Shown: one piece after another, positions 15,897 through 35,341 of the stretch
Position numbering within the stretch: the stretch's first letter is position 1
Layout of the letters: every line of letters starts with the position of its first letter
Assembly: GCF_018595685.2 (NCBI RefSeq)
Contig: NZ_CP092334.1
Location: forward strand, 2,756,001 to 2,820,000
DNA length: 64,000 nucleotides
DNA from: Flavihumibacter rivuli
GTDB lineage: Bacteria; Bacteroidota; Bacteroidia; Chitinophagales; Chitinophagaceae
Direction of reading: 5' to 3'
The notes under the pieces: generated by a model
Told to the model about the DNA's origin: nothing
Database searches by the model: none
What the model saw: only the letters and a program-made list of their open reading frames with translations
Position numbers and translations under genes: made by a program

Positions 15897-15941
15897 TAAA
15901 AGTATATTACTAACTGCCTGGAACTGTCCTGAACTGTTGGG
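15897..15941 (-). promoter_or_regulatory. Operator/promoter site A, upstream of the rha-lut operon
   Basis: Read on the plus strand, CTGTCCTG (15924-15931) and CTGTTGGG (15934-15941) are direct repeats with a 10-bp period; a third related copy CTGCCTGG is at 15914-15921. On the coding (minus) strand the core reads as CAGGACAG. The -7-like TACTTTTA lies at 15904-15897, 19 nt downstream of the two-copy site. No TTG -33 box is in place. Part of the six-site motif family. Confidence 0.65.
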
Positions 15942-16284
15942 TGGTGACACATAAACATTTGGTTAACCACCAGATACCCTTATCTCGGCAATGATCTTGC
16001 TACCTGACTATTGAAGTCGTTTGTATTCGCCTATGCCAACTACTGCAGTTCATACCGGATATGGATCCCGCTGAATCAAAAATGATTCAGCAACTCCTTA
16101 TTATAAGTACCTATCTATATAGATAATAGCACCGGTCATCCATCTTACCAGCTTCATATAAAGCGTATCTACCCAATAACATCCTAATGAAATCCGTTTC
16201 CTTGGAAGCCATATAATCCATACAAATTGGGGAAGTGTCATATCCATTACCTTCAGGTCACAAAGACCGGCTTCTTTCCTGTTT

Positions 16285-16330
16285 CAGGATAGGGCAGGAT
16301 AGCCATCGAAAAATTGGGGGCTACCTTTTG
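16285..16330 (+). promoter_or_regulatory. Operator/promoter site F, upstream of GH106
   Basis: Two perfect copies of CAGGATAG (16285-16292 and 16295-16302) are spaced by GG, a 10-bp period. A -7-like sequence TACCTTTTG begins at 16322, 19 nt downstream. The ATG is at 16352. This is the only site of the six that lies on the plus strand, and it faces the only plus-strand gene in the set, so the orientation follows the gene. Confidence 0.7.
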
Positions 16331-16351
16331 GACTGATCTCAAAATCATTTT

Positions 16352-19300
16352 ATGAAGACTTTTCTTGGCATCCTGTTATTCATGTCAATATTCTTTGCAC
16401 ATGATTCATTTTCACAATTCCATACCCCATCTATTAACACCCTGAAGCAGGGATTTGCAAGTCCGCCGGAAGAAGCCAAACCAGGTGTGTACTGGTATTT
16501 TCTTGATGGCAATATGAACAGGGAGGGCATGACCAAAGACCTCGAGTCAATGAAAGCTTTTGGCATCAACCATGTCATTTTCCTTGAAGTAAACCTTGGT
16601 GTCCCGAAGGGAAAGATCAATTTCATGAGCGAATCATGGATCGGAAATTTCACTTATGCCATCCGTGAATGTGAGCGGTTAGGCATAGATGTTACCCTTG
16701 GTGTGGGTCCGGGCTGGACCGGAAGTGGCGGACCATGGGTTAAGGCAGAAGAATCCATGCTTCACCTGGTTTCAAGCGAGAAGAAAGTGACAGGGGGGAA
16801 AAAGATCAGGGAAAAGCTATCCGTTCCCGAACCCAAGCGACCCTATTTTGGTGAAGAAAACCTTTCAACTGAAGTGAAGAAACAATGGAAGGAATATTAT
16901 AAAGACGTTAAAGTATTGGCATTCCCTTTACCCCAGGTGGAGAAAAGAATTCCTGAGATCGATAGTCTGGCATTGTACTACCGGTCTCCCTATACTTCCA
17001 TGGTTGGGGTAAAAGCCCACCTTCCGAGAATATCCGGTGATATCAATTGGCCGGCAGGAGCCGTAGTCGATAAAAGAAAGATAGTAGACATTACTGCTAA
17101 CATGCAACCCGATGGTACGCTGGAGTGGACTGCACCAGCGGGAAATTGGCTCATCATGCGATTGGGTTCCAGGAATAATGGGGCCATCACCCGACCTGCC
17201 CCGGATCCGGGATTAGGTTTGGAAAGCAGTAAGTTCGATACTACAGCACTGAATGACCATATGGCAAACTTTGTCGGCAAACTGATCAATGCCATCGGGC
17301 CGATCAATCCCAACAAAGCCGGCGGCCTTAAGCGTATCCATATGGATAGTTGGGAGATGGGCGCGCAGAACTGGTCAGAAAGCTTCAGGCAGGAATTCCA
17401 AAAGAGAAGGGGATATGATCCCCTTCCCTATTTCCCTGTTTATGCAGGGTGGGTGGTAGATAATTTTGATAACAGCGAAAGGTTTCTCTGGGACCTCAGG
17501 CTAACAGCACAGGAATTGGTCATTGAAAATCATGCCCAGCATCTTAAGCGATGGGGCAAAAGGAATAAGCTCGATTTCTCCGTAGAATTCTATGATATGA
17601 ATCCAACTGCTGACCTGGAACTGGGAAAGGTTGGCGATATTCCCATGGGTGAATTCTGGAACAGGGAATGGCCATTCAACAGCTCCTTTAGTGTGATTGA
17701 AGCGACTTCCATCGGCCATGTTAATGGTATTGCAACAGTCCAGGCAGAGGCATTCACCTCTTACCTGGATGGCTGGAAAGATCATCCGGGATCAATCAAA
17801 AACCAGGGTGACTGGGCATTTGCGGCTGGTATCAACAGGTTCTTCTACCATACCTTCCAGCATCAACACCTGGACGACAGCCTTAAACCGGCCATGTCTT
17901 TTGGCCCCCATGGTGTGCACTGGGACAGGAACCAGACCTGGTGGCATCTTTCCAGGCCCTACCATGAATATATAGCCCGTTCTCAATACCTCCTGCAACA
18001 AGGAATTCCGGTGGCGGATATCCTTTACCTCACTCCGGAAGGTGCGCCACATGTATTTACACCACCCTTCTCCGCTTTGCAGGGAACGGCCATAATGCCC
18101 GACAGGAAAGGATTCAATTTCGATGGTTGTGCCCCCAGCCAACTCTACGGTGCAACTGTAAAGGACGGCAGGATCGTATTCCCCGGTGGCAACAGTTACA
18201 GTATACTGGTACTTCCGGATGCCGGATATATGTCGGTTACCCTGTTGAAGAAAGTGGAAGAACTGGTGCGTGACGGCGCGATTGTGATGGGCAAACCTCC
18301 TGCTACAGTACCGGGCCTCAGTGACTGGAAAAGCCAGGAGAAAATCCTGAAGAACCTCGTCAACAAGATATGGGGACCACATGCTGTTTCAGCCAATCGG
18401 ACAAGCGCATCCTATGGTAAAGGAAAACTATTCTGGGGTGGGGATTATGGTAAAGCGGCAGACTCAAGCCTTTATCCTTCCTACAACGCAACAGCGGAAC
18501 TGTTACGTTCACTCCAACAAAAGGAATCTTTTGCGACAGGAGCTCCCTTGCGTTATATCTATCGTAAGGCACCGGAATGGGACCTGTATTTTGTTTCCAA
18601 CACCACCAACCAGTCCATTAAGACTGATGTGCTTTTCTCGGCAACAGAAGGAACGCCGGAAATCTGGCATCCTGTAACTGCCCAATCGCATCCGCTGAAT
18701 AGCTTCACCCGTGTCAACGGGGGGACTTCCATACCCTTATCATTAGAACCTTACGAGAGTTATTTTATCGTCTTCAACAAGACGCAACAGGCTGCAGGCA
18801 ATAAGGGACAAAATTTCAGGTCCGCTTCCATCATCCAGACCTTACAGGGTGACTGGACTGTAAGTTTCGATCCCAAATGGGGTGGACCTGGCAAGGTTAC
18901 CTTCCCCGACCTTACTGATTGGAGTCTCCATCCTGATCCCGGTATTAAGTATTACTCCGGCACAGCTTTCTATTCCAAAACCTTTGATATGGCTGATCCA
19001 GCTGCAGGTAAAGGGAAAAAGCTGATCCTCGACCTTGGTGATTTCCAGCATTTGGCCAGGGTAACCCTGAATGGTAAGGACCTGGGCATCTTGTGGACCA
19101 AACCCTACACCCTGGATATTACCAACCACATCAAAGAGAGCGGCAATGAGTTATTGATCGAAGTAGTGAACACCTGGCCAAACAGGTTAATTGGCGATGA
19201 ACAGTTGACTGATGATGGCGTAAAGGATGCACAATGGCCGCAATGGATATTGGTAAGTAAGCCACGTCCGTCCAGGCGTTATACGTTCGCAGTCTGGAAA

Positions 19301-19372
19301 TACTATAAAAAGACCGATCCGCTTATCCCATCAGGATTATATGGACCGGTAACCATAAAAACAGTTGACTAA
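16352..19372 (+). CDS. GH106 alpha-L-rhamnosidase-like glycosyl hydrolase (copy 1)
   Basis: 1006 residues; signal peptide ends near HDSFSQ, so it is exported. The GH106 pattern is visible throughout: ASPPEEAKPGVYWYFLDGN near the start, GVGPGWTGSGGPWV, DSWEMGAQNW, the long catalytic barrel with VQAEAFTSYLDGW, GTAIMPDRKGFNFDGCAPS, and a C-terminal jelly-roll ending with the family's NTWPNRLIGDEQ. GH106 enzymes are calcium-dependent inverting alpha-L-rhamnosidases, often acting on rhamnogalacturonan or related glycans. It has its own promoter with the six-site motif and no partner gene; it ends 4 bp before the convergent GH99-like gene. About a quarter to a third identical by eye to copy 2, so not a recent duplicate. 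Confidence 0.88.
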   Translation: MKTFLGILLFMSIFFAHDSFSQFHTPSINTLKQGFASPPEEAKPGVYWYFLDGNMNREGMTKDLESMKAFGINHVIFLEVNLGVPKGKINFMSESWIGNFTYAIRECERLGIDVTLGVGPGWTGSGGPWVKAEESMLHLVSSEKKVTGGKKIREKLSVPEPKRPYFGEENLSTEVKKQWKEYYKDVKVLAFPLPQVEKRIPEIDSLALYYRSPYTSMVGVKAHLPRISGDINWPAGAVVDKRKIVDITANMQPDGTLEWTAPAGNWLIMRLGSRNNGAITRPAPDPGLGLESSKFDTTALNDHMANFVGKLINAIGPINPNKAGGLKRIHMDSWEMGAQNWSESFRQEFQKRRGYDPLPYFPVYAGWVVDNFDNSERFLWDLRLTAQELVIENHAQHLKRWGKRNKLDFSVEFYDMNPTADLELGKVGDIPMGEFWNREWPFNSSFSVIEATSIGHVNGIATVQAEAFTSYLDGWKDHPGSIKNQGDWAFAAGINRFFYHTFQHQHLDDSLKPAMSFGPHGVHWDRNQTWWHLSRPYHEYIARSQYLLQQGIPVADILYLTPEGAPHVFTPPFSALQGTAIMPDRKGFNFDGCAPSQLYGATVKDGRIVFPGGNSYSILVLPDAGYMSVTLLKKVEELVRDGAIVMGKPPATVPGLSDWKSQEKILKNLVNKIWGPHAVSANRTSASYGKGKLFWGGDYGKAADSSLYPSYNATAELLRSLQQKESFATGAPLRYIYRKAPEWDLYFVSNTTNQSIKTDVLFSATEGTPEIWHPVTAQSHPLNSFTRVNGGTSIPLSLEPYESYFIVFNKTQQAAGNKGQNFRSASIIQTLQGDWTVSFDPKWGGPGKVTFPDLTDWSLHPDPGIKYYSGTAFYSKTFDMADPAAGKGKKLILDLGDFQHLARVTLNGKDLGILWTKPYTLDITNHIKESGNELLIEVVNTWPNRLIGDEQLTDDGVKDAQWPQWILVSKPRPSRRYTFAVWKYYKKTDPLIPSGLYGPVTIKTVD

Positions 19373-19376
19373 CAAT

Positions 19377-21083
19377 TTACCTGTTTGCACGGTAATGGTA
19401 GTTGAACCTTCCTATTGGCGCAGCGTCACCATGCAAATAGAAATCCCAGATGTTCAATAGGTCCTGCATATTGTCCATCCATTTGAATGAAAATTCAAGA
19501 ACAGGTGATGAAGGGAAAAAAGACCTTGGAACACTTACTGTTACCTTACCCGATTGAATGTTTGCAGGAATCAGTTGTACAGGCTCCCATGCATGCTGCT
19601 TGAAACGATGCAGCATGACATTGCCTGTACGACTGTAATCTGCGACCAGGAGGTCATAGCCATTCCAACCCGTCCGGGAATCATTATCTGCATCGATAAA
19701 AACCATCATCCAGTTGCTATCTGGCCTGGTTAGTGGTAGTCGGGTACTAGCAGAAAAATTGATCACAGCATTCTTTTCGGCTATCTGTAACCGTATGATA
19801 TCATTCCTGCCAGTGCTATCTATGTAAATTTTATCCTTCCAGCCCTCAGCATGACGGACCATGTTGTTATTGCTATAGGCAGTATATTCTTTTTTACCAG
19901 CTTTTGCCTGGTCCTGCTTCATGCCTTTAAACTTCCTGATATTATTCACCATTTGGTAATAATAGTTATCGCCATGCCCTCCCTTCATTGGTTCTATATC
20001 CCTGCTGAACTCCTGGTTGAACTGATCCGGGAAGGCATTGGTCTGTCCCTGCCATTCCTCAAAACGACCGGCAATCCATTCATTCCATCCTGTAATAAAC
20101 ACAAACTCCGGATCTAGTTCCAGAGCCCTGTCCCATTGTTCCTGGAAGTTCAATCCAAACAATACGGCACCGGAATCCTTGGCATGTCCTTTTGTATGGG
20201 TATAGCTACGGCCGAAAGCCCCCGCGGCATTCATGGCAGTCAGTCCCTTCTCTTCAGACCAATTCTGCGCCACTCCTACGGTTACCTGCTCAAACCTATT
20301 GTCCGGGCCCTTTCGAAATCCATGTTGCGGAAAGATCTCCAACCAACCCCAATGATCCTTCCTTTCAGGACCCTTGTTATAAACAGGCTGTCCCGGTCGA
20401 AAGGTGAAAAACTCAAGCATGTCTTTATTACCGTTGGTAAATTCAGGCATTCCCATGATAAGCGGTTTCCCCTTCCACCTGAACCACAGGTCCTGGTATT
20501 TCCCCGGCCTGTACAAGTCCGTGAACAACTCCTGCAGTATTTCCCTACCGCCAACAGTATTCCCGAAAGGAAGCATGAAGGCAATCCGGGGTGTCACATT
20601 TCCCTCGCTGCGCATCTGGCTATATACTTCGCAAAGTCGGGTATACGATTCCTTCCAGGTGAAGTTTCCGTTGGTACAATCAAAGATGATAACATCCACG
20701 GCTGCTTCCGCTAGCAGTTCAGCATGCTTACGGAGCACCCATTCATCCGTATCCCGGTAAAACCCGAACAAAGGTTCACCCCAGAAAAAAGGGCTGTTGG
20801 TTGTGGGCCAAACTTTATGTTTATAATCCCAGATGGCTTCAGGGTGGTCTTTCAACAGCACTGAAGGAACATAGGGTGGATGATGGGCATGGGCTGTATG
20901 CCATGTCCAATAGAATATGCCAACAAATTTTTCAGGTTGCCAATCCTTTACTTCGCCGGGCATCAATAACTTTCTTCTCACTCCATCCATCCCTGTGTGG
21001 GCTGAAGGACTAATGGCCTTTTGCGCAGCCGCCGAAAAGCCCCAATAACAAGCCAGCATCAATAATGAATTCTTCAACTTCAT
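19377..21083 (-). CDS. GH71/GH99-like glycosidase with C-terminal DOMON/CBM9-like domain
   Basis: 568 residues; signal peptide ends near GFSAAAQ. Residues about 45-385 resemble the GH71/GH99-like (endo-mannosidase fold) barrel: VGIFYWTWH, DVIIFDCTNGN, GKPLIMGMPEF and FITGWNEWIAGRF, the WNEW box being typical. Residues about 415-560 form a beta-sandwich (VFIDADNDSRTGWNGYD) like CBM9/DOMON sugar-binding domains. The specificity is not readable; in a rhamnose locus an endo-acting or debranching role is plausible. Its ATG overlaps the stop of the upstream TIM-barrel gene (ATGA, 21080-21083), and it is last in the SusCD operon. Confidence 0.75.
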   Translation of the reverse strand: MKLKNSLLMLACYWGFSAAAQKAISPSAHTGMDGVRRKLLMPGEVKDWQPEKFVGIFYWTWHTAHAHHPPYVPSVLLKDHPEAIWDYKHKVWPTTNSPFFWGEPLFGFYRDTDEWVLRKHAELLAEAAVDVIIFDCTNGNFTWKESYTRLCEVYSQMRSEGNVTPRIAFMLPFGNTVGGREILQELFTDLYRPGKYQDLWFRWKGKPLIMGMPEFTNGNKDMLEFFTFRPGQPVYNKGPERKDHWGWLEIFPQHGFRKGPDNRFEQVTVGVAQNWSEEKGLTAMNAAGAFGRSYTHTKGHAKDSGAVLFGLNFQEQWDRALELDPEFVFITGWNEWIAGRFEEWQGQTNAFPDQFNQEFSRDIEPMKGGHGDNYYYQMVNNIRKFKGMKQDQAKAGKKEYTAYSNNNMVRHAEGWKDKIYIDSTGRNDIIRLQIAEKNAVINFSASTRLPLTRPDSNWMMVFIDADNDSRTGWNGYDLLVADYSRTGNVMLHRFKQHAWEPVQLIPANIQSGKVTVSVPRSFFPSSPVLEFSFKWMDNMQDLLNIWDFYLHGDAAPIGRFNYHYRANR

Positions 21084-21904
21084 ACAGTCCTGGTTTTAAA
21101 GTGATGGTTTAAATAGTCCTTCATAAACTGGTTCAACTCCCATTGGGAAGCCAGCGGTTGTCCATCAACGATACTGGTCCACATATAGGGTGGAGGACCA
21201 AATTCCGTGGTAATGGTCAGGAAGGGAGACCCGCTTCTTCTTCTATGATCATAGATCATTGTCCACCATTCCACAAACCTTTCAAGATAGGGGCGCCAGG
21301 TCGGGACACGCGGATCAGGAACCTGCGGACCTTCTTCATGGCCGACCCTTGCATGGATATGAACGGCATTCCTGATGGCTGTTTCCAATATTGGGTGTTG
21401 CATCTTCAGCATGCTCTCGGTAACACATGTCCAATGCGAAAAATCAGCCGTGATGGGAAATCCATTCCTTGCCCGAAGTAGGTCAGCATAATTATAAGGA
21501 CTGTAGCACAGGTTCCCCCGGTGGGTTTCATGAGCCACTGTTATATCATTGGCCTCGGAAAAAACGGCTGCCCTGTCAATAAACTGTAATTGTTCCTGGA
21601 GCATCAGGTAATCCTTTCCAGTATGCGAATTGATCAATAAGGGTTCCATTTCGGCACAACATTCAAGTTGGTATTGAAAGGAATCCAGCCATTGTGGAAG
21701 GGTGTTGCCAGCAGCCTGGTATTGATGACAAACAATCAACAGCTCATACTGCTGCAATAAGGTCTTTAGCCTTTGCTGCTCCTGCCTGCTGACCGGTAAC
21801 CATGTTTCAATACCATCAAATCCTGAAGCCTTCACTTTTTCCAGGAAGGCTTCCAGGGAAAGGTTTTCAGAACCCCAATAAGGGCATAAATAAAAGCATT
21901 TCAT
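21080..21904 (-). CDS. Sugar phosphate isomerase/epimerase-like TIM barrel
   Basis: 274 residues without a signal peptide, so cytoplasmic. It has the AP-endonuclease-2/xylose-isomerase-like TIM-barrel pattern: GFDGIETWLP, DITVAHETHRGN (Glu and His ligands), FPITADFSHWTCV (Asp/His) and VHIHARVGHEEGPQVPDP, with the acidic end typical of metal-dependent epimerases. It may isomerise or epimerise a sugar released by the neighbouring glycosidases; the substrate is unknown. It sits between GH106 copy 2 (13-nt gap) and the GH99-like gene (4-nt overlap) in the SusCD operon. Confidence 0.8.
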   Translation of the reverse strand: MKCFYLCPYWGSENLSLEAFLEKVKASGFDGIETWLPVSRQEQQRLKTLLQQYELLIVCHQYQAAGNTLPQWLDSFQYQLECCAEMEPLLINSHTGKDYLMLQEQLQFIDRAAVFSEANDITVAHETHRGNLCYSPYNYADLLRARNGFPITADFSHWTCVTESMLKMQHPILETAIRNAVHIHARVGHEEGPQVPDPRVPTWRPYLERFVEWWTMIYDHRRRSGSPFLTITTEFGPPPYMWTSIVDGQPLASQWELNQFMKDYLNHHFKTRTV

Positions 21905-21917: not shown

Positions 21918-24900
21918 TTAATTATTCCCTAACGTTGACAAGATCCTGACCGGTCCCAAAAGACCGGATGGCTGATAAGGATCAGCAGCCGAATAAGGGT
22001 TGTAGTTAGCAGCAGTCCTGCGCTGCGGAATAGGTCGTTTTGCATCACCGATCAAACTGTTGACCCAGGTATTCACCACCTTCACCCTGATCTCATTGTT
22101 CCCGTTTTGCAATTTTCCAGTGATATCCAATTGCCATGGTGAGGTCCAAAGTGCACCTGCTGGTTTTCCATTGACCTCTATTGTAGCCATAATAGCCGCA
22201 CTGCCGATATCCAGGGTATAGCTTTTGTCTGCCTGCTTTTGTAAGGTGAACTGTTTTGAATAGACAGCTGAACCGGAAAAATTATGCAGGCTGGAATCCC
22301 CTAGTTCATGCCAGCTGGACAAACCAGGAAGTTCAAGCTCGCGGTCCTTACCCGGTAAAAAAGGAGAGAACCTAACGCTCCACGGCCCGGTCAGATTCAT
22401 CTCTACATCCAAAGAAGGGAAATTGACCGATGCCAGTTTGCTTTCTGTCTTTCTGTCGGTAAATACAATAAAGCAACTTTGATAGGGGGCCAGTTTAAGC
22501 GGAACTTTTATTCCATTGATATCTTCCATGAAGTCAGGCAGGCTGCGCTTTGTCCCGCTTGTCGCATCCCACCATTCCGGTCTCTTGTTCCTAACCCGGA
22601 AAACCGGATTGAACACTACCGGCTTGTTCTCCTGGTTGGCCAGGAAGTAGATCTCCATATCACCCACCCGCCTGTGATAATAAAGAATGGGAAGGGTTGA
22701 ATCGTAGATGATGTCAGGCCTGAGACCTTTTCTCATAAACACCTGTTCAAGACTGAGGTTGGAATGAACCTCCCCCTTGCCTACCTTCTTCACCATCATT
22801 CCATTAACCTTGGAACCGCCCCATAGTGAGAACTTCAATTTATCCAATTGTCCATCGGCAGCAGGATAGCCTTCAAGGCTCGGGGAAAGCATTGGAGGGG
22901 TACCTACAATAGTAGCCCCATCTTTTACCAGTTGAATTAATTTTTCAAGTACCTCAGGACGCATGCTTGAGGAAGGCGGAAGCACCAATACACTATAACT
23001 CATTCCATCTGGTAATACTATTCGACCATCCTTTACTGTCAACCTATTGAGAATTACTTCAGCATTGATGTAATCAAATTGATGTCCATGTGGAAGGGAA
23101 GGCTCTCGTATGCCTGTCATTTTTGGCACATCCTCGCCGATATAATACGCAGCATCAATTACCGGAAGGCCTTGTTGTAAAAGGTAATTGCATCTCCGGA
23201 GGTAATCGAAAAACACCTTTCCGTCCCTGAACCAGGTGTTGTTACGGCTGAACTCCGTTCCAAACCATGCATTCATCCCAGGCTTTTGGATACTGTCTGG
23301 TTGGGTGATGTATACATGCAATAGAGTATGGTTGATCCCTTCTGTAAAGGACCAGTCTGCCCGCTTCTTCAACATGCCGGGATAACGGGCGAATGGTTGA
23401 AATGCCGAGGTGAAGGATTCAGCTGCTACCCTGGTCTTCCCGTAAATATGCGCTGCAGATGCCGCAGCCCTGCACTCAATACTGCCCAGGTCACCTTCAT
23501 TCCAGAATTCGCCGCCAACTTCATCAGCCTGCCCACCATACTGAAGGAATTCGGCAGGAAAGCCCCAATGGCCATAATTCTCCAGCCATAGTTTCAAACC
23601 GTGCTGGTGGCATACCTTTCTCAGGCCACCAACATATTCGTAAGCCACCCTATCAGCAATCAATCGCCTGAGATCCCATAGGAACCGATTGGACTGGTCT
23701 GCTGACCCAATGATATGACCGGATAAAACCGGCAACCATGGAAAGGGTTCATATCCATAGAGACGCCTGAAATCTTCAGCCATGCCACTGGTCCAGTTCT
23801 GTGAGCCCGTTTCATAACTATCCGCAACCACCCATTTCAATGCCACCCTATCCTCAACTGGTATACTATCCAGTATCCTTCCCACAAATGCATCAAAATG
23901 ATGGACTGTATATGCGCTGTTGATCTTATCCAATTCCAGTCCCCGACCCTCAGGTGTTGCAGGACTATTGGTCACCCCAGTAGTGGTCATCCCATAACGA
24001 ATGATCTTCCAGCTGCCTTGGGGAACATCCCATTCCAAGCTTCCATCATCCTTCAGTAAATGGCTGATGTTGATGACCCGATTTTCCGGTATGTAAAATT
24101 CAGTACCCTGTTCATTTTGTTTAGGCCATTGGTACTCGTTCCATAAAGGAAGGGGTTCCGGGAACATACGGGCAAGTTGTTTCTCCATATACTGTTCCAC
24201 GACTGGTTCCGCGGATAGATACAATTCGGAAAAAGAGGGCTGTCCGGAAATGGCTAAGACCTCAACTTTTAGTTTATGAACAGCTACTTCAGGAATTTCA
24301 ATCGTAACTGGGGCATTGGGAATGAACCCTACCGCCAACATCTTATTGTTGTGGTCTACCTTGAAGGAGCGAATGGTTGCCCATTCATTTCCCTGCAATA
24401 GTTTTACCCTTACTTCACATCTGAACTTACTATAATGGGGTACCAATCTCAGGCTCCTGATGGTAGTTCTTTCATCCCAACTAAAATCCAATACCGATAA
24501 ACTATCTGCGAACTGGAAAAAACTACTGGTATCATTATCCAACAGAACGCCGAACTGGCTATTGCGGTCCCTTCCTGATGAAGCAATGTTTGGTATAGGG
24601 GTTGAACTCCGTTTTAAGGGTATCGCCAGTAAAGCTATATCTTCAAAATAAGCATAAGGATGGCTAAGGTTGATAGTCCTTCTTACTCCTCCTTCAACAA
24701 CCCTGTTGACATTGGCAACATAACGCATACTTTCACCGGGGCTGATCCAAGGACCACCCGACTGACTCCAGCCTGGTGAATTGAATAGCCCCAATTCAAC
24801 ATTGTTCTTCCTGGCTGCATGGAAAGCAGACCTGACAACTTTCCACCATTTTTCACTAAACAGGGGGGCATTCCCGTTAGAACGCACTTCATCCTCACTA

Positions 24901-26783: not shown

Positions 26784-26808
26784 ATCATGAAATTGATTAT
26801 TGATACAA

Positions 26809-29800
26809 TTAAAATGCACAGCTTACACCAAAAGTCACACTGATATTCCTGGGGTAAGCACCAAAGTCAATACCCGGCTGGGCCAACGATTGACCATACG
26901 AACTCACTTCAGGATCGAAACCAGAATACTTAGTAATGGTCAGCAAGTTTGTCCCGGTTGCAAACAACCTCAGGTCCTTGAATCCTTTTACCGATGGGAA
27001 GGTATAATTGATGGTCAGGGACTTCAGGCGGATGAAATCACCCTTTTCAACCAGGGCCGATGTAACATCACCAACGGGTAATCCATTAGTGGCTGTATGT
27101 AATGATGGATAGCGCACATCATTATGCTGGTTATTGGTTGTCCACCTTTTGTTGTACCATTCTTCTGTCTGGTTGAAATAGATGCCCTGGTAATTAATGA
27201 ATCCTGAATTAAGGTAAAAACCGGTAACATTCAAGATATCGTAGCCGACCGCTCCATTGAAGAACATGTTGATACCCCAACGCTTATAAGTAAAATCTGT
27301 TGTCCAACCGAATGTAAAATCAGGAACGCCGTTACCTAGGACAGTCCGGTCTGCGGAATTAATGATACCATCCTTATTCAGGTCAACATATTTCCATGAA
27401 CCGGGCACTTGTGATGCCGCTCCACCAGGGAAAGGATAGTTGGGAACACCGATGTTAAAATCAGATGGTTGAACCAATCTTTCCACCATATAACCATAGA
27501 AATTCCCGACTCTTTCACCTGGACGAAGGATATGCGATACACCCGCCAAGCCATTTCCTCCAAGTGTAAAGAACCTGTCAGCATTATTCAATCCGAAAGA
27601 TTTGATCTCATTGTAATTCCTTGACAGGATAAATGTGGTACCTAGGTACATGTCCTTCTTCTCAATGATCACTCCTTTCAAACTCAACTCAATTCCTTTG
27701 TTCAACATCTCCCCGTCATTACCCAGTACTGACCTGAAACCTGACTGGGATGGAATTGAACGTGATTGTAATAATCCATTCGTGAGCTTTTGGTAATAAT
27801 CGAAGCTGGCAGAAATCCTGTTCTTAACTACGGAGAAATCAACACCTATATTGAATTGCTTCGTCTCTTCCCAGGTAAGGTCAGCATTTCCCAATGAGGT
27901 TGGTCGCAATATGGTGGAATATCCATTGCCTGATCCATACTGGAAAAATGCAGTGTTATAACGGGAAAGCGATTGGTAAGGGGATATGGCCTGGCTACCG
28001 GTAATACCGTATGACGCTCTTAACTTTAAATTATCTACAAAATTCACTCCCTGCATAAAGGATTCATTGGAAACGTTCCAGGATGCACCAACGGCAGGGA
28101 AAAAGCCCCATTTCTTGTTAGCGGCAAAGGGAGAAGCCCCGTCCGCCCTAAGGGAAACATTCAGGTTATACCTGTCATCAAATCCATAATTGATCCTTGT
28201 AAAGCCAGACATGATCGTCCTGTCTTCCCTATATGTACCGACACCCTGGCTCCTGCCGATCCCCAGATTGTAGTTCTCCAGTGTCTGTATACCAAAATCA
28301 GAAGCCCTAGTGGTAACAAGCTCCAATACAGTACCAGTATACTCACCACCAAGGACTGCATTGAAACGGTGCTTGCCACTGAATAAATTATCATAGGTAA
28401 AATATCCAGTAAGGTTGTACCCGGTTGTTGAAGCTGTATTCACACTTCCTTCACCGTTGGAGAAAATACCATTATTGGTTCTAGAATTGAAGAAGATATC
28501 GCGTTTTGAATTATCAAAGCTGGATCCGCCCGCAATAGTCAAACGAAGGCCATTGGTAATGGTGAAAATATTCTCCAAATTAAAAAGGATATTATCGGTC
28601 CTGGTCTTATCCACCTTTTCTGTCAGGTCAATGTATGGGTTAAGGAATGCCCCACCAGGAAATCCTCCTGAACCATTGTAAGTACCCGACTGACTTTTGG
28701 GAAGGGTTGGCAGCGCACGCAAGGCATCTAGTACTGGACCTGCAACCTGGGGGAAGCCCAATGTTGTGGTCATCGCCCTATCATTGACCATCCTGGTAAC
28801 ACCCGCCTGCAGCCTCAACGTATACCATTTATTGACTTCTGAATTTAAATTTACCCTTACGTTACCCCTTTTAAAACCAGATGCGATCAGCACACCGTCA
28901 TCCTGGAGGTAACTACCGGAAACATAATAGGCACTTTTATTTGTACCGCCTGATACATTCAAGGCAACTTCCTCACGGAAAGAATTACGCGTAATCTCAT
29001 CAAACCAATTGGTAGAAGTATTAAGCGTATCCAGATCATAGGCAGGCAGATTGCCTGTAATTGCAGCATATTCATTCCGAACTGTAGCGTATTGCCGGGC
29101 ATTCATCATTGTTGGTGGTGACGCCAGGGAACCAAATGATGTTTTATTGACAAACTCGATCCTGGCATCGCCCCTCCTACCTGATTTTGTAGTGATCAAC
29201 ACAACACCATTGGCTCCCCTTGAGCCATAGATGGCGGTTGCAGAGGCATCCTTCAACACCTCGATACTGGCGATATCATTCGGGTTGATGGTCATTAAGG
29301 GGTTTTGACGGAATGCCCCATTCCTGCCGCCTGAAGAAGCTTCGGTATAAGGCGGAATGATAAATCCATCAATAACATATAGCGGCTCATTATTCCCGTT
29401 AAGGGAGTTGTTACCACGTATACGTATAACGGCATCGGCGCCAGGCTCCCCTGATGATTCAATGGATTGAACACCAGCAGCCCTGCCCTGTAAAGCCTGG
29501 TCAACAGTGTTCACGATCGTATTCTTGAATTCACCCGCCTCAACTTTAGCTACAGATCCAGAAAGAGATTTCCTGCTCTGGGTTCCGTAACCTACTACTA
29601 CCACATCCGACATCGTTCCCGTCCTTGGCGACAATTGAATTCCTAAATCAGCAGTATTACCATCCACGAGGTATTCCCTTGATTCATAGCCAACATAAGA
29701 GACAACGATTGTCTGTCCTTTCTTTACCATCAACTTGAATGCCCCATCAGCATCTGTTGTAGTACCTGTCTTGGTATTCTTAACATTAACGGAAACACCA

Positions 29801-29946
29801 GAGAGCGGGATGTTGTCCTTCGAAACTACTTTCCCGTTAACTGGAATCAGGTCTTGTGCAAACATTTCGAGAGAAAAGATTAAAGCCAATATGGACAACC
29901 ATATTACCTTCCTCGTTTGCAGACCATTTGATAGTCTTTTTTTCAT
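26809..29946 (-). CDS. SusC-like TonB-dependent transporter
   Basis: I use ATG 29946 (MKKRLSNGLQTRK), 1045 residues; the frame stays open to 30003 but that adds a leader with no signal. Signal peptide ends at LEMFAQ; then the CarboxypepD-reg-like domain (about 33-115), the plug with SDVVVVGYGTQSRKSLSGSV, YVIDGF and IEVLKDASATAIYGSRGANG, and a 22-strand barrel ending in a C-terminal aromatic (SVTFGVSCAF). It imports an oligosaccharide with SusD. No FecR-type N-terminal signalling extension is seen, so control by an ECF/anti-sigma pair is unlikely; the motif at 30037-30054 is a better candidate. Confidence 0.97.
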   Translation of the reverse strand: MKKRLSNGLQTRKVIWLSILALIFSLEMFAQDLIPVNGKVVSKDNIPLSGVSVNVKNTKTGTTTDADGAFKLMVKKGQTIVVSYVGYESREYLVDGNTADLGIQLSPRTGTMSDVVVVGYGTQSRKSLSGSVAKVEAGEFKNTIVNTVDQALQGRAAGVQSIESSGEPGADAVIRIRGNNSLNGNNEPLYVIDGFIIPPYTEASSGGRNGAFRQNPLMTINPNDIASIEVLKDASATAIYGSRGANGVVLITTKSGRRGDARIEFVNKTSFGSLASPPTMMNARQYATVRNEYAAITGNLPAYDLDTLNTSTNWFDEITRNSFREEVALNVSGGTNKSAYYVSGSYLQDDGVLIASGFKRGNVRVNLNSEVNKWYTLRLQAGVTRMVNDRAMTTTLGFPQVAGPVLDALRALPTLPKSQSGTYNGSGGFPGGAFLNPYIDLTEKVDKTRTDNILFNLENIFTITNGLRLTIAGGSSFDNSKRDIFFNSRTNNGIFSNGEGSVNTASTTGYNLTGYFTYDNLFSGKHRFNAVLGGEYTGTVLELVTTRASDFGIQTLENYNLGIGRSQGVGTYREDRTIMSGFTRINYGFDDRYNLNVSLRADGASPFAANKKWGFFPAVGASWNVSNESFMQGVNFVDNLKLRASYGITGSQAISPYQSLSRYNTAFFQYGSGNGYSTILRPTSLGNADLTWEETKQFNIGVDFSVVKNRISASFDYYQKLTNGLLQSRSIPSQSGFRSVLGNDGEMLNKGIELSLKGVIIEKKDMYLGTTFILSRNYNEIKSFGLNNADRFFTLGGNGLAGVSHILRPGERVGNFYGYMVERLVQPSDFNIGVPNYPFPGGAASQVPGSWKYVDLNKDGIINSADRTVLGNGVPDFTFGWTTDFTYKRWGINMFFNGAVGYDILNVTGFYLNSGFINYQGIYFNQTEEWYNKRWTTNNQHNDVRYPSLHTATNGLPVGDVTSALVEKGDFIRLKSLTINYTFPSVKGFKDLRLFATGTNLLTITKYSGFDPEVSSYGQSLAQPGIDFGAYPRNISVTFGVSCAF

Positions 29947-30010
29947 GACGAGCAATTTGTCTTGGTTATATAATTCAATTAGAGAGAATGAAAATTCTTT
30001 CATTCATAAC

Positions 30011-30054
30011 CAAATTATATATGAAATCATTCATGACTGTCCTGCACTTACCTG
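30011..30054 (-). promoter_or_regulatory. Operator/promoter site B, upstream of the SusCD operon
   Basis: Plus-strand reading: CTGTCCTG (30037-30044) and CTTACCTG (30047-30054), direct repeats with a 10-bp period; a further CCTG is at 30062-30065. On the minus strand a TA-N3-TTTG element (30019-30011) begins 17 nt downstream. The SusC ATG is at 29946. Confidence 0.6.
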
Positions 30055-30222: not shown

Positions 30223-31653
30223 CTAACACACCTGTATGGTATCGATCCCCAATAAACTCCCCAATTTCCTGATCTTACTTGAAATGTGCCCTGTTCCAAT
30301 TGCACAATGATGTGCAGGCCCCCTGGCATTCCATTCCTCCATAAACTTTCTTGCTCCAATTGAAAACCTGTAGCGACTATTGGTGTTGCCGATTTCAAGA
30401 ATGGGGCCAGGAACAGATTCGCCTTCTGCTACTAAGAATATGATCTTTCCTTCAGCCGTCTCAACAACAGAAAGCAAGGTAACAGGACCGTGTTGAACAG
30501 ACATCTCTACTGATAGTCCCTTTCCTACTTTTCCATGATAAACCTGCAGTGGCCGGACTTTTGTTTTGCCCTGGGCAATGGCAATATGACCGGGACCATC
30601 ATGCCCCATCAGTACCACATCATCGGTGTAATCAACTGCATAGTATTCGGTAAATGAACCCCCAACACCAAAGGAATCCATGATCTTCATGGCCTGGGCA
30701 TTCTTTACCTCGTATTCTCCCGCAACCGGAACGCCACTACCTGTAAGGATGGAGTTACCAAGGATCACAGAGCTCATGGTATCTTCATTATCAATATTTC
30801 CTTCCCCTTTATGATAATAGGCCATTGATCCCAGCTTATACTTATCCACCAGCTTATGCAAAGCCACGGATGTCCTTGCAGCCCTATACAGTTCCTCTTT
30901 GGAACAATCTGGCTGAACATCAAAAATCTCATGGAACCTGTTCACCTCCTTCTCCAATTCATCTGGGGTAACTTCCTTCCTGATGCTGCTCAATTCATCA
31001 ACCTCCACTATCTCCATATGTCCGCCGAATACAGCGCACTGCAAAGTCAGGTTCGTATAAATATCCAACATCCCACAATAATAATTACCCATCAAGCCCA
31101 TCCGGTTATTGCGCATGACCGCAGCCACCCTACCAGCTTCTATCCATTCTTTCACTTCTGCCCAAACCATATCATCTTCTGCCAAAAGGCCTGTCACCTG
31201 GAAAAATGGGATCCTGCTCCTTGAAAACACATTGGCAATTTCCGGAACAGGGCAGGAGGAACAATGTGCCAACCATTCCCCAGTCATTTTTCGCCTGTCA
31301 CCCAAACTGTTGAAGCTTTTATAATCTATGGCCCGCTCAGGGGTGATATTCATCACAACTACCGGAACACCGGCACGCCTGACAACTGGCAATACGGTTG
31401 ACGATAATGCATAGGTGGTAACATAGAGGAAAATCAGGTCGACATCCTGCTTCCTGAAAATACTGCCCGCCTCAAAAGCCTTGTCTACATTATCAACAAG
31501 CCCAACATTCACCACATCGGCACCAAATGACAATAATCTTTTCTCTACTACAGACATGTAACCTTTCAAACGCTCTTCAAGACCATCAAACTGAGGCCAG
31601 TAAGCGTCGAGACCAATACCAAATAAACCGACTTTTATTGCTGTTTGCTTCAT
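30223..31653 (-). CDS. L-fucose/L-arabinose isomerase-family protein
   Basis: 476 residues, no signal peptide. The N-terminal half has the Rossmann-like layout of arabinose/fucose isomerases (KVGLFGIGLDAYWPQF, DLIFLYVTTYALSSTVLPVV). The C-terminal half carries a likely Glu ligand in GGSFTEYYAVDY and the family box MGHDGPGHIAIAQGK, then a final GTGHISSKI. It is close in length to AraA (about 500) and shorter than FucI (about 590). A ketol isomerase role is likely, but RhaI already covers rhamnose, so another deoxysugar or a modified sugar is the better guess. The start overlaps the PhyH stop by 4 nt (31650-31653). Confidence 0.8.
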   Translation of the reverse strand: MKQTAIKVGLFGIGLDAYWPQFDGLEERLKGYMSVVEKRLLSFGADVVNVGLVDNVDKAFEAGSIFRKQDVDLIFLYVTTYALSSTVLPVVRRAGVPVVVMNITPERAIDYKSFNSLGDRRKMTGEWLAHCSSCPVPEIANVFSRSRIPFFQVTGLLAEDDMVWAEVKEWIEAGRVAAVMRNNRMGLMGNYYCGMLDIYTNLTLQCAVFGGHMEIVEVDELSSIRKEVTPDELEKEVNRFHEIFDVQPDCSKEELYRAARTSVALHKLVDKYKLGSMAYYHKGEGNIDNEDTMSSVILGNSILTGSGVPVAGEYEVKNAQAMKIMDSFGVGGSFTEYYAVDYTDDVVLMGHDGPGHIAIAQGKTKVRPLQVYHGKVGKGLSVEMSVQHGPVTLLSVVETAEGKIIFLVAEGESVPGPILEIGNTNSRYRFSIGARKFMEEWNARGPAHHCAIGTGHISSKIRKLGSLLGIDTIQVC

Positions 31654-32486
31654 AAGGATGATTTCACTGTACTCTTTTGATAGATCAAGGGGTTCTGTGC
31701 ATCATTATCCAGCAGGTCGCCAATATGTAAGCCGGACAAGTATTCATCACTCAGGATATTTGGCTTGCCATTGAACCTGCTCTTGTCCGGCATGAAAGCA
31801 CAGGTCATAGCCCTTCTATAACCAGGAGTCATATTGGCATGGGCGCCATGGATACACAAACCATTATGGAAGGAACAACTCCCTGCTTTCATGGGGGCCG
31901 CCACTGAAGGGCTCTTCAAAAATTCAGGGTATTGAAGGAATACCGCGTTCATGTTCTTTGTGATGCCGGGATCCTTGAAATCTGTTCGCGTATGCGACCC
32001 TGGAATAAAGAACAGGCAACCATTCTCCAATGTAGCATCATCTAATGCTATCCAGATACTAAGGGCTTCCCTGTGATCAAAACTCCAGTAGGGTGTATCC
32101 AGATGCCACGCAGTTGGATTTGCCCAGGGTTTTTTAATCAATGCCTGGTCATGCCAGATCCTGATCCCATCAACCTGGGCGAGTTGGGCGGCCATCTTAC
32201 CGATCCTTTCATCGAGCATCAATTGCCTGACCTTATCATTCGTTTGCCATAGATTGACCAACTGGTCAAATACATTCCCAAAATATTCGGCATCTTCATT
32301 TATGCCATCCTCCTTTCCTGTCTGTATATTTTTTCCGGGGATCTTTATTCCGTTCCTTTCGGCTACCGCTTCCATTACAGCATTCCTCCAGGTCTCCAGC
32401 TCTTCCGGATTAAGAAAATCTTCTACCACCAGGAATCCGTTTTTACGGTAGGATTGTATTTGTTCATTTGACAATGAAGTATTCAT
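31650..32486 (-). CDS. Phytanoyl-CoA dioxygenase (PhyH) family oxygenase
   Basis: 278 residues, cytoplasmic. It is a double-stranded beta-helix Fe(II)/2-oxoglutarate oxygenase: the HxD iron motif is in TAWHLDTPYW, the distal His in CIHGAHANMTPGYRRAM, with the following Arg as 2-oxoglutarate partner, and FIPGSHTRTDF between them. The family hydroxylates or oxidatively demethylates varied small molecules. Here it is translationally coupled to the isomerase-like gene and preceded by the rhamnose-locus motif, so a sugar-related substrate is inferred. It is bounded by the rhaT terminator upstream. Confidence 0.87.
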   Translation of the reverse strand: MNTSLSNEQIQSYRKNGFLVVEDFLNPEELETWRNAVMEAVAERNGIKIPGKNIQTGKEDGINEDAEYFGNVFDQLVNLWQTNDKVRQLMLDERIGKMAAQLAQVDGIRIWHDQALIKKPWANPTAWHLDTPYWSFDHREALSIWIALDDATLENGCLFFIPGSHTRTDFKDPGITKNMNAVFLQYPEFLKSPSVAAPMKAGSCSFHNGLCIHGAHANMTPGYRRAMTCAFMPDKSRFNGKPNILSDEYLSGLHIGDLLDNDAQNPLIYQKSTVKSSL

Positions 32487-32527: not shown

Positions 32528-32545
32528 CTGTCCTGTACTATCGGT
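32528..32545 (-). promoter_or_regulatory. Operator site C, upstream of PhyH
   Basis: Plus-strand reading: CTGTCCTG (32528-32535) and a degenerate CTATCGGT (32538-32545), 10-bp period, 41 nt before the PhyH ATG. I do not see a convincing TAnnTTTG at the usual distance, making this the weakest of the six sites. Confidence 0.5.
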
Positions 32546-32592
32546 TATGAAATGCCTCAGTATAGGATGTTGTAAGGGTTGAAGTACCATAG

Positions 32593-32624: not shown

Positions 32625-32665
32625 ATTCGCCACTATCAAAATGCTGTTATTGATTTTCTACCCAG

Positions 32666-33727
32666 TTAATCTGGCTTTAAAGAGGAGCCATATCCTACCA
32701 CCAATACTGAGAGGATAATAGAAGATATACCGGCTATAACTGTCCATCTTGCTTTCTTACTAACCCCTTCCCATTCCTTCAACCAGATCCCCCAAAGGTT
32801 GGCGATCAGGATGATAAATGCCATATGGAGGATCCATGAACTGGCGCCATTTCCCAGTTTACTTTCCCCCATTCCATAGAAAAAGAATTGCAGGAACCAG
32901 ACCGTACCGGCCAATGCGGAAAAGAAATAGTTCCTACCTAATGGGCTCTTTCCATTTACATAATCACCAAAGCTTTTATTCTTGGTATTCAGGAAAAGAC
33001 ACCACAGCAAATTTGTGGTCAGCCCTCCCCATAGCAATACCACATAAGTGACATTGTTCTGAAAAAGCGGATTCTTTCCTGCTGCAACAGCGGCATCAGC
33101 CATGGGTTTACCGGCCTCAATACCGAAATTGAAACAAGCGCTGAGGACACCGGAAACGGTTGCAACAACAAGTCCTTTGGTAAGGTTAAATTCGTCGGAC
33201 TTTGGTCCATCACCATTTGCGGTGATTTCCTTTTCCTTGATCATTCCTGCCTTTCCACACAGGTAAATACCGAGCAGGCAGAGCAGCACCCCTAATAAAA
33301 TGATCTGACCCCAGGTAGTGGTGAGCAGTTCCCCAAATGTGGTTTTTCCGGGTGCAGGGAAAAAATGATAATATACGGAAGGAACCAGGGCTCCAAATAC
33401 AGAACAGAATCCCAGTACAACGGAGTTTCCAAGGGACATACCCAGGTATCGGACACCCAGTCCATAGGTCAATCCTCCTATTCCCCACAAAATCCCAAAC
33501 ATGAAAGTCCAACCCAGGGTATCCGATGGTGTTGAACTGATGATGGAACTAAATCCGGGTAATGTAAAGGCCGCAGCCAGTGGAGGAACGATCAACCAGG
33601 AAAATAAACCACCAACGATCCAATAACTTTCCCAGGACCAATTCCTCACCTTCTTGAAAGGAACGTAAAAACTTCCGGACGCAAAACCCCCGATAAAATG
33701 AAACAATACTCCTAGTATGGCTTGCAT
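32666..33727 (-). CDS. rhaT: L-rhamnose/H+ symporter RhaT
   Basis: 353 residues and about ten membrane segments of the drug/metabolite-transporter fold. Matches RhaT: FHFIGGFASGSFYVPFKKVR at the start, ESYWIVGGLFSWLIVPPLAA, GILWGIGGLTYGLGVRYLGM and NSVVLGFCSVFGALVP. It brings L-rhamnose across the inner membrane with protons, feeding rhaI-rhaB-rhaD. It is transcribed alone between site D and its terminator. Length is near E. coli RhaT (344). Confidence 0.95.
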   Translation of the reverse strand: MQAILGVLFHFIGGFASGSFYVPFKKVRNWSWESYWIVGGLFSWLIVPPLAAAFTLPGFSSIISSTPSDTLGWTFMFGILWGIGGLTYGLGVRYLGMSLGNSVVLGFCSVFGALVPSVYYHFFPAPGKTTFGELLTTTWGQIILLGVLLCLLGIYLCGKAGMIKEKEITANGDGPKSDEFNLTKGLVVATVSGVLSACFNFGIEAGKPMADAAVAAGKNPLFQNNVTYVVLLWGGLTTNLLWCLFLNTKNKSFGDYVNGKSPLGRNYFFSALAGTVWFLQFFFYGMGESKLGNGASSWILHMAFIILIANLWGIWLKEWEGVSKKARWTVIAGISSIILSVLVVGYGSSLKPD

Positions 33728-33759
33728 AAACTTGAATTAATGCACAATCGTGTTACTGG

Positions 33760-33803
33760 TAAATTTACCTTATTGACGGTACAAGCTATCCTGTTCCATC
33801 CTG
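33760..33803 (-). promoter_or_regulatory. Operator/promoter site D, upstream of rhaT
   Basis: Plus-strand reading: CTATCCTG (33786-33793) and CCATCCTG (33796-33803), 10-bp period. On the minus strand TAAATTTA (33767-33760) begins 18 nt downstream; the rhaT ATG is at 33727. Confidence 0.68.
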
Positions 33804-33828
33804 AAGATGATGAACCTAACAGCAATGC

Positions 33829-35250
33829 CTACTCTATAGAGACTTCAATCCTCAAAGCCCAGGCATCCCTGCAAGGCAAATGGTTGATGGTGAGGGACGG
33901 AAGCTTAATCAACAGTTCATTCCCCTGGACCTTCCAAGTCACAGGTGATGCAGTCCCCACAAAAGAAAGCGACTTAACCTTTACACCAGGCTTAAGGGAA
34001 AATTTTAATTCCTGCTCAGGCCACTCCGTAAAGATGGCATAAACTGAACTGCCTTTCCCCGTAAAATATACTGGAACAGGATTATTCGTTGAACCAAACA
34101 AATCGGTTTTCCGGGTATCATATATGGACTCGCCATTTACTTTCAACCAATTTCCGATCTCCAGTAGCCTTTCCTGCATAATTACAGGCAGGGTTCCATC
34201 TGCGGCTGGCCCAACATTCAACAGCAGGTTTCCGCCCCTGCTGACAATATCCACCAGTTCGGTGATCAACTGTTTTGAAGTACTGTAGTGCTCAATGTTC
34301 TCTGCCCTGTTCAAGCCATACGATGCCCCGATACCCCGACTTTCTTCCCAGGGATGGTTAAAATCAATAGAGGCATCCTTGTATTCACTGGAAAAATAAT
34401 CGCCATGCTTTCCGGGCATTCCCTTTGCAAACCTGTCATTCACAACCACTTCATTTTTTACCGGTGATTCGTTGTACAACCAGGCGAGAAACTCTTTTGT
34501 TTTCAGGTATTCCTCGGACTCATCCCATTCGCCCCCATCAGAGAAAATGAGGGAGGGAGTATAATTAACCACCAACTCCTTCAATTGTGGAATCAAATGT
34601 TTATCAACATAATCTTCCCTGGGTATCTGGTACTTCTCCACAAGGTTTAAGGGCACATAATATCCAGTCTCTGACCGATGGGTCTTCGAACTTTCCCACT
34701 CAATAATGGAATAGTATAAGCCCATCTTCATACCTTCCTTCCTGACTGCTTCTGTTAATTCACCTACAATATCCCTTTTCGGGCCTACCGCCATGGCGTT
34801 CCAATTCTTCTTATAGGGGCTTTTGGTTGGCCATAAACAATACCCATCATGATGCTTGGATGTTAAAACAACATATTTGGCACCTGATGATTTAAACAGT
34901 CTGGCCCATTGTTGCGGATCCCAAAGCTCAGCCCGGAACAAGGGGGCAAATTGGCGATACTCAAAATCCTTCCCATAATTCTTCTCATGAAATTCCTTAC
35001 CACCATTCTTTTCATTGGCATAGACCTTGGCATAATACCATTCGGCATAAGAGGCGTAAAGCCCCTTTTCAATTGGCCGGTAGGCCGGTACGGAATATAC
35101 ACCCCAATGAATGAATATCCCAAACTTGGCATTGCTGAACCATGCAGGTATATTACGGCTATCCAGGGAATTCCACTCAGGTTTATACGGCTGTGAAAGG
35201 GCAGTTAGAACCATTGAGAATGAAACGAACAAAAAGAAAGTAACCCTCAT
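33829..35250 (-). CDS. Alpha-L-fucosidase, GH29
   Basis: I use ATG 35250 (MRVTFFLFVSFSMVLTALSQ), which begins with a good signal peptide; the frame is open to 35346 but that start lies beyond operator E. 472 residues. GH29 barrel: WFSNAKFGIFIHWGVYSVP, SKHHDGYCLWPT, GLYYSIIEW, and the nucleophile Asp in LIFSDGGEWDESEEY; ELVDIVSRGGNLLLNVGP closes the barrel. A C-terminal beta domain follows. It should release alpha-L-fucose (or a close 6-deoxysugar) in the periplasm. It has its own motif-bearing promoter, divergent from the GntR regulator. Confidence 0.93.
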   Translation of the reverse strand: MRVTFFLFVSFSMVLTALSQPYKPEWNSLDSRNIPAWFSNAKFGIFIHWGVYSVPAYRPIEKGLYASYAEWYYAKVYANEKNGGKEFHEKNYGKDFEYRQFAPLFRAELWDPQQWARLFKSSGAKYVVLTSKHHDGYCLWPTKSPYKKNWNAMAVGPKRDIVGELTEAVRKEGMKMGLYYSIIEWESSKTHRSETGYYVPLNLVEKYQIPREDYVDKHLIPQLKELVVNYTPSLIFSDGGEWDESEEYLKTKEFLAWLYNESPVKNEVVVNDRFAKGMPGKHGDYFSSEYKDASIDFNHPWEESRGIGASYGLNRAENIEHYSTSKQLITELVDIVSRGGNLLLNVGPAADGTLPVIMQERLLEIGNWLKVNGESIYDTRKTDLFGSTNNPVPVYFTGKGSSVYAIFTEWPEQELKFSLKPGVKVKSLSFVGTASPVTWKVQGNELLIKLPSLTINHLPCRDAWALRIEVSIE

Positions 35251-35297
35251 GATCGTTCCAAAGTTTTTATACTGAAATAAACATGCTTTCATTACGC

Positions 35298-35341
35298 TAA
35301 ATATATAGTATAGCGCGTATAAGCTATCCTGTACTATCCTG
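35298..35341 (-). promoter_or_regulatory. Operator/promoter site E, upstream of GH29
   Basis: Two perfect CTATCCTG copies on the plus strand (35324-35331 and 35334-35341), i.e. CAGGATAG direct repeats on the coding strand, 10-bp period. TATATTTA (35305-35298) begins 18 nt downstream; GH29 ATG at 35250. Best-conserved site together with site F. Confidence 0.7.

Follow-up and report, generated by a model that had tools for sequence, protein, structure and literature searches.

A tandem repeat ahead of rhamnose genes in Flavihumibacter rivuli, a predicted operator of a GntR/LacI-type regulator

Which protein controls the rhamnose genes of Flavihumibacter rivuli, and does it switch them on or off? 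A 64,000-nt stretch of this genome (here called the window; the whole genome is a single 4.3-Mb contig) carries a cluster of genes for rhamnose uptake, rhamnosidases and rhamnose catabolism, together with a gene for a GntR/LacI-type protein (35430-36461). A sequence-only reading had pointed out six copies of the direct repeat CAGGAYAG-N2-CAGGAYAG (the first pattern), placed where the −33 promoter element should be, and had proposed a regulon of activator-dependent promoters. Comparison with related loci gave the refined pattern CAKGAYRG-N2-CAKGAYRG, and we consider it likely that this repeat is the operator of a rhamnose activator, the 35430-36461 protein, predicted to act where the −33 element would be.

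A direct repeat with a strict 2-bp spacer

We compared the window with the best 80 of 502 candidate loci carrying orthologs of the 35430-36461 gene (63-80% identity; by title mostly Chitinophagaceae, with some Pedobacter and others). Together they comprise 1.48 Mb, of which 0.21 Mb is intergenic by a simple open reading frame (ORF) rule. Allowing up to 2 mismatches, the refined pattern was found 105 times in intergenic and 28 times in genic DNA. With spacers of 0, 1, 3, 4, 5, 6, 7, and 8 bp, the intergenic counts were 9, 8, 3, 8, 8, 4, 13, and 10, respectively, and the genic counts stayed flat at 20-40. In the 80 loci, the stricter first pattern gave 47 matches at 2 mismatches, against 1 for the same pattern written backwards. 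The two-copy motif is therefore not equally frequent in other DNA. The repeat is real, and the intergenic surplus at spacer 2 makes its 2-bp spacing strict.

When the 105 intergenic sites were aligned by the repeat alone, a TAnnTTTA-like element emerged at columns 37-44, 19 nt past the repeat. For the 85 sites that have no more than one mismatch, TAnnTT followed at gaps of 18, 19, and 20 nt in 15, 51, and 2 cases, the next commonest gaps being 12 nt (14 cases) and 33 nt (8 cases). A position matrix, as had been proposed earlier, was built from the 105 sites (78 distinct 18-mers, with 4 of the sites coming from the window itself), and a scan of 623 upstream regions yielded 80 promoter matches. 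All 80 point to a gene, the 52 that point away from one gene facing its divergent neighbour, and TAnnTT lies at 18-20 nt in 58 of them and at 13-15 nt in none. In Flavobacterium psychrophilum, the TAnnTTTG box lies at −12 to −5 (PMC9723704). Given this and the gap of 18-20 nt, the repeat would occupy about −49 to −32, if the F. psychrophilum box placement holds here. A site overlapping the −35/−33 region at a fixed distance is the arrangement of class II-type activator promoters.

The two half-sites are not equally kept. An exact proximal copy with a −7 element at 18-20 nt goes with a distal copy that matches at no more than 5 of 8 positions in 15 of 78 cases; conversely, an exact distal copy goes with such a degenerate proximal one in only 2 of 62. 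The proximal copy thus appears to be the more constrained contact of the predicted binding protein.

In the window, the first pattern with up to 3 mismatches gave 10 matches against 1.46 expected, and none of 100 dinucleotide shuffles reached 10. The sequences of all six sites are present at the positions and on the strands that had been claimed, and each site points to the gene it precedes, as had also been claimed. They are listed here with mismatches to the first pattern, matrix scores and the −7 elements, which were assigned by eye.

35324..35341, minus strand: predicted operator before GH29, CAGGATAG-TA-CAGGATAG; 0 mismatches, score 27.5; exact genome match
35298..35305, minus strand: −7 element before GH29, TATATTTA, gap 18
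33786..33803, minus strand: predicted operator before rhaT, CAGGATGG-AA-CAGGATAG; 1 mismatch (0 to the refined pattern), score 25.3
33760..33767, minus strand: −7 element before rhaT, TAAATTTA, gap 18
16285..16302, plus strand: predicted operator before GH106, CAGGATAG-GG-CAGGATAG; 0 mismatches, score 25.2
16322..16329, plus strand: −7 element before GH106, TACCTTTT, gap 19
30037..30054, minus strand: predicted operator before the SusCD operon, CAGGTAAG-TG-CAGGACAG; 2 mismatches, score 16.2, borderline
30010..30017, minus strand: −7-like element before the SusCD operon, TAATTTGG, gap 19
15924..15941, minus strand: predicted operator before rhaEW-rhaI-rhaB, with a degenerate distal copy CCCAACAG and an exact proximal copy CAGGACAG; 3 mismatches, score 5.0
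15914-15921: third, weak copy next to the 15924 site
15897..15904, minus strand: −7 element before rhaEW-rhaI-rhaB, TACTTTTA, gap 19
32528..32545, minus strand: weak candidate operator before the PhyH-isomerase pair, ACCGATAG-TA-CAGGACAG; 3 mismatches, score 10.0

The top matrix score across 40 simulated windows was 18.8. Sequence alone suffices for sites 16285, 35324, and 33786; 30037 is a borderline case, and neither 15924 nor 32528 would be detected in this way. For 15924, the genus supplies support, because G013 has the identical 18-mer CCCAACAGTTCAGGACAG ahead of rhaT-rhaEW and seven other members (G002, G004, G005, G008, G011, G012, and G014) keep the proximal CAGGACAG before rhaT-rhaEW, with TAnnTT 19 nt on. 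The asymmetry of the half-sites accounts for the weakness of this site. A −7 element had been described for five of the six sites, and it was found at gaps of 18-19 nt at all but 32528, where none was seen by eye at 18-20 nt. Since the PhyH gene behind 32528 also has no close ortholog among 15 genomes of the genus (best 34% identity), 32528-32545 stays a weak and unconfirmed candidate; five of the six proposed sites hold. The PhyH and isomerase-like genes themselves lie at 30223-32486, the isomerase being weakly similar to sulfoquinovose and L-arabinose isomerases. With no close relative of PhyH in the genus, the two genes may have been acquired recently.

The whole genome contains 3 exact matches to CAKGAYRGNNCAKGAYRG, all inside this cluster. 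Among 13 one-mismatch matches, 1 lies in the SusC-like gene of the window and 12 lie inside ORFs elsewhere; none of these 12 has TAnnTT at 18-20 nt, and one has it at 16 nt. The repeat within the SusC-like gene (28778-28795, one mismatch to the refined pattern) is probably there by chance. At 3 mismatches the genome gave 191 matches against 64 for the backwards pattern, an excess that composition may cause.

Longer arrays are not the rule: in 83 site clusters, extra copies number at most 2 at any one offset (0.15 expected per offset). Single loci depart from the simple pair. L108 has four half-sites in line at a 10-bp pitch before rhaT (minus strand, about 9701-9748), L063 and L066 each have two repeat pairs 22 bp apart, and L237 (G011, beside rhaT) has a tandem array of ~14-bp units containing gtgtctgacatgt. 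In L107, L115, L118, L120, and L124, a CAAGATRG-NN-CAGGATGG site lies on the plus strand just behind the regulator gene, with no TAnnTT at 17-21 nt; in L107, the one locus of these where it was matched to Pfam, the next gene is of the GH88 family.

The adjacent regulator and the rhamnose regulon

The protein encoded next to the cluster has an N-terminal GntR winged helix (Pfam PF00392, 33.9 bits against a cut-off of 27), which places it in the GntR family. This is its sole DNA-binding match (Pfam, E 0.001), and no DeoR-type DNA-binding domain was found. The LacI/periplasmic-binding-type effector domain is that of the AraR-type subgroup; the palindromic operator of this subgroup was not found, the sites being direct repeats with the strict 2-bp spacer.

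35430..36461, plus strand: RhaR-like regulator gene; GntR winged helix at residues 21-83, LacI/periplasmic-binding-type domain at about 91-343

The sequence-only reading had named this protein for binding tests, and the link between repeat and regulator is supported by their co-occurrence. Of 32 genomes with the regulator, 27 have exact sites, as against 4 of 67 without it (Fisher p 3e-15); within the bacterial family, the counts are 27 of 31 and 4 of 29. G001 and G003, two genus members that lack the regulator, still carry rhaT and rhaEW, but their genomes contain no exact site and these loci no pair of half-site and −7 element. In many loci the site lies just upstream of the regulator gene and points to the divergent gene. 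A site has the regulator as its first downstream gene in only three cases, all of them near-palindromic reverse matches; in L122, L132, and L140 the regulator is the last gene of the rha operon.

The genes that the sites precede are also consistent across genomes. Of 77 first genes behind matrix matches, 55 have a counterpart in the window cluster (rhaT 35, GH78 7, SusC 5, the operon GH106 at 21918 3, regulator 3, GH106 1, and rhaEW 1), and 22 match none. Downstream of rhaT lies rhaEW in 33 of the 35 cases and, as judged by the gap rule applied, rhaI in 14. Sites thus stand before rhamnose uptake and catabolic genes across genomes, as befits a rhamnose regulator (RhaR by function). In G031, sites lie within 2.50-2.58 Mb before GH106, rhaT, three SusC-like genes, a Pel9A/BT_4170-like rhamnogalacturonan lyase, a fasciclin-domain gene and two GH2 genes, and at 1.08 Mb before a GH28 gene; most, not all, have a −7 element at 18-19 nt. 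By gene content, the predicted targets form a rhamnose and rhamnogalacturonan regulon. The coherent regulon proposed earlier agrees with the comparative targets, namely rhaT, rhaEW/I/B, SusCD and rhamnosidases. The corresponding genes of the window are as follows.

13620..15734, minus strand: rhaEW, rhamnulose-1-phosphate aldolase/lactaldehyde dehydrogenase (NCBIfam TIGR02632 and NF006191 above cut-off)
12324..13610, minus strand: rhaI, L-rhamnose isomerase type (TIGR02629 E 1.3e-146, below its cut-off)
10899..12305, minus strand: rhaB, FGGY-type kinase
8043..10802, minus strand: GH78-type alpha-L-rhamnosidase (Pfam Bac_rhamnosid6H)
16352..19372, plus strand: GH106 alpha-L-rhamnosidase
26809..30003, minus strand: putative SusC-like gene, first of its operon, so named for its position ahead of SusD and after the sequence-only reading
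25224-26819, 21918-25151, 21080-21904 and 19377-21083: rest of the SusC-like operon, namely SusD, GH106, an AP_endonuc_2 protein and the gene at 19377-21083 (SusD, GH106 and TIM-barrel matches)
32666..33727, minus strand: rhaT, L-rhamnose/proton symporter (NF010024 above cut-off)
33829..35346, minus strand: GH29 alpha-L-fucosidase-type gene, at its listed longest-ORF start

In this listing, both the operator and the predicted promoter of GH29 would fall downstream of the gene's start; translation probably begins at the in-frame ATG at 35250, which is followed by a signal-peptide-like stretch.

Other genes also have repeats ahead of them. L182, L183, L185, and L186 (near position 4001; two genus genomes, G012 and G013) have good repeats before large genes, which in L182, L183, and L186, the three that were scanned, are of the PSCyt1/PSCyt2/PSD1 cytochrome type; TAnnTT lies at gap 19 in L183, and TAnnGTTG at gap 19 by eye in L182 and L185. 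A repeat in G048 (L179:4001-4018), which has no TAnnTT at 18-20 nt, lies ahead of a gene for a Gfo/Idh/MocA-type oxidoreductase.

Activation or repression

Paralogous regulators from the same bacterial family (24-29% identity) have intergenic direct repeats of the same 10-bp period, TAGNAYAG-N2-TAGNAYAG. Across 26 paralog loci (22 from one search and 4 from another), YAGNAYAG repeats with at most 1 mismatch occur 30 times in intergenic DNA at spacer 2, whereas other spacers up to 8 give 0-10; the 10 at spacer 7 arise because the unit itself is 5-bp periodic. After removal of overlaps, 22 sites remain in 21 of the 26 loci. In 17 of these 22, TAnnTT(T/C)(G/A) ends 0-9 nt upstream of the repeat, and in none does TAnnTT lie 17-21 nt downstream. 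In 17 of the 22 loci of the larger paralog set, the site immediately precedes the gene of the regulator itself. Tandem repeats of the CAGNCCAG type are present in 5 of 5 loci of a third group (33% identity), with TAnnTTTG about 11-13 nt upstream by eye in 4 of 5, two of which are near-identical. A protein bound in this way would sit on the start site and act as a repressor. Since the repeat of the rhamnose group lies upstream of the −7 element at a fixed phase and that of the paralogs lies downstream, activation is favoured for the rhamnose regulator, and this contrast is the strongest sequence evidence for it.

When a downstream −7 element was required, a generic search for repeats in 20 paralog loci gave 5 period-10 matches in two places (L168 and L169); the wider paralog signal appeared only without this requirement, because the paralog −7 element is mostly upstream. 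Upstream of the gene for one paralog in G060 (30% identity) lies CAGTATAG-TA-CAGTACAG, followed by TA at gap 19. Because it is a single example, and its relatives were found in 6 of 59 genomes with its own counted (30-36% identity elsewhere), no claim is based on it.

We propose that the 35430-36461 protein is the RhaR of Chitinophagaceae and relatives. Its two 8-bp half-sites, CAKGAYRG, would lie head to tail on one helix face, 10 bp apart. L-rhamnose or L-rhamnulose in the LacI-type domain would enable the dimer to bind the repeat, mainly through the proximal copy, and the bound protein would touch RNA polymerase where the −33 element would be. Uptake (rhaT and SusCD), rhamnosidases and the rhamnulose-phosphate pathway would thereby be switched on. 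The effector is probably one of these two sugars; in Chloroflexus aurantiacus, the effector of an unrelated RhaR is L-rhamnulose (PMC3870299). The paralogs would use the same kind of tandem operator, spelled differently and placed at the transcription start, as a roadblock.

Several observations weigh against this proposal. Within flanks of up to 10 kb on each side, 14 of 81 ortholog loci have no site, and G029 (190 contigs) has a site before rhaT with no regulator detected. The loci are interrelated (near-identical promoters in Niastella and others), and the counts are not independent. One further paralog site in L168, outside the 22, is flanked on both sides by −7-like elements, TATATTTG before it and TAnnTT 17 nt after it. 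The fixed placement of the earlier activator-like layout is supported, but the missing TTG that had been counted in its favour proved weak evidence and was dropped: upstream of 93 TAnnTTTG elements in the same loci (gaps 8-35), TTG is not clearly enriched, reaching at most 3 against 1.9 expected. The counts thus give no support to replacement of the −33 box. In 64 pairs of regulator and half-site, residue-base covariation did not concentrate in the winged helix, which took 4-8 of the top 20 positions; these were spread over the whole protein, as shared ancestry predicts, and the covariation was therefore left unused. For this reason, the regulator link is drawn from co-occurrence and neighbourhood. 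A symmetric LacI-type dimer on a direct repeat would also need a flexible linker or an unusual pose.

The same protein might instead repress, blocking the −33 region until the sugar releases it, in the manner of AraR of Bacillus subtilis. The nearest solved relatives by sequence include the repressors AraR (4egy) and YvoA (4u0v), and the repeat overlaps the place of the −33 box. A roadblock, however, does not need the almost invariant distance to the −7 element, the repressor-like paralogs place their repeat at the start site before their own gene, and the rhamnose regulator comes first behind a site only in the three reverse matches and ends the rha operon in L122, L132, and L140. We regard repression as unlikely, though it is the most serious of the alternatives. 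That another conserved regulator binds the repeat, and not the adjacent GntR protein, seems quite improbable: some sites lie far from the regulator gene (G031 and G013) and the covariation was uninformative, but repeat and regulator co-occur, many sites lie just upstream of the regulator gene and point to its divergent neighbour, and paralogs of the same protein carry the same operator form before their own genes. A promoter part read by an alternative sigma factor, to which the fixed distance to the −7 element might point, is hardly credible, as TAnnTTT(G/A) elements are of the primary-sigma type, the paralogs have this form of repeat downstream of them, and the presence of the repeat tracks the GntR gene.

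Extending the activator reading, we lean slightly towards the view that the GntR/LacI-hybrid sugar regulators of Bacteroidota share a one-turn tandem operator, not a dyad, and that its place alone decides between activation (−49 to −32, standing in for the −33 element of the unusual primary sigma factor) and repression (start site). A symmetric dimer would then lay its two winged helices head to tail.

Relation to known systems

We recognised no description of this operator or of a Bacteroidota GntR-family rhamnose regulator in the open-licence literature (RegPrecise itself lay outside the search). New, as far as this search reaches, are the operator, the GntR/LacI-type rhamnose regulator, the constant position of the operator over the −33 region in Bacteroidota, and the occurrence of two placements in one protein family. 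To our knowledge, activators working with the Bacteroidota primary sigma factor are poorly mapped outside Bacteroides. The analysis provides a predicted operator with exact spacing and a predicted rhamnose and rhamnogalacturonan regulon in dozens of species. The matched layouts within one protein family make the idea that position decides activation or repression testable via one 18-bp element. If the proposal is true, GntR joins the protein families used for rhamnose control.

AraR of B. subtilis is a repressor with palindromic operators. It resembles the 35430-36461 protein in combining a GntR winged helix with a LacI-type domain, and it differs in that it represses from palindromes, whereas here a direct repeat lies at an activator position.

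The palindrome NyGTNxACNy is the operator form for much of the GntR family (PMC4494728). The earlier remark that a direct repeat is unusual for GntR proteins needs qualifying, as direct-repeat operators are already known for NanR, NagQ, FarR and MocR-type proteins of this family (PMC4494728, PMC8012715, PMC5320631). The tandem-repeat form itself is known, both from some GntR proteins and from DeoR-type rhamnose regulators. NanR of Escherichia coli is a GntR-family protein that binds direct repeats in an asymmetric pose, and since it binds (GGTATA) repeats, a GntR protein can sit on a direct repeat. Unlike the protein described here, NanR uses (GGTATA)3, has an all-helical sensor domain and is a repressor that binds as three dimers (PMC8012715). 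For the MocR-type GabR, TauR and PdxR, direct-repeat operators and activation are both known, but these proteins have an aminotransferase-like domain and a head-to-tail dimer, and their operators are direct, mixed direct/inverted, or inverted (PMC5320631, PMC4494728).

Among rhamnose regulators, the families named in passages of PMC3870299 are AraC, DeoR and LacI, and the word GntR does not appear in its main text. The DeoR-family regulators come close in operator form, a rhamnose regulon with two imperfect direct repeats of 10-11-bp period, but they differ in protein family and half-site, and the two described with functional data, those of Rhizobium leguminosarum and C. aurantiacus, are repressors (PMC3870299). 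RhaR of Bacteroides thetaiotaomicron (BT3768) is, like the protein proposed here, a rhamnose activator from the same phylum with a direct-repeat motif, whereas it belongs to the AraC family, its repeat has a 21-bp period, and the two proteins are unrelated (PMC3878776, PMC3870299).

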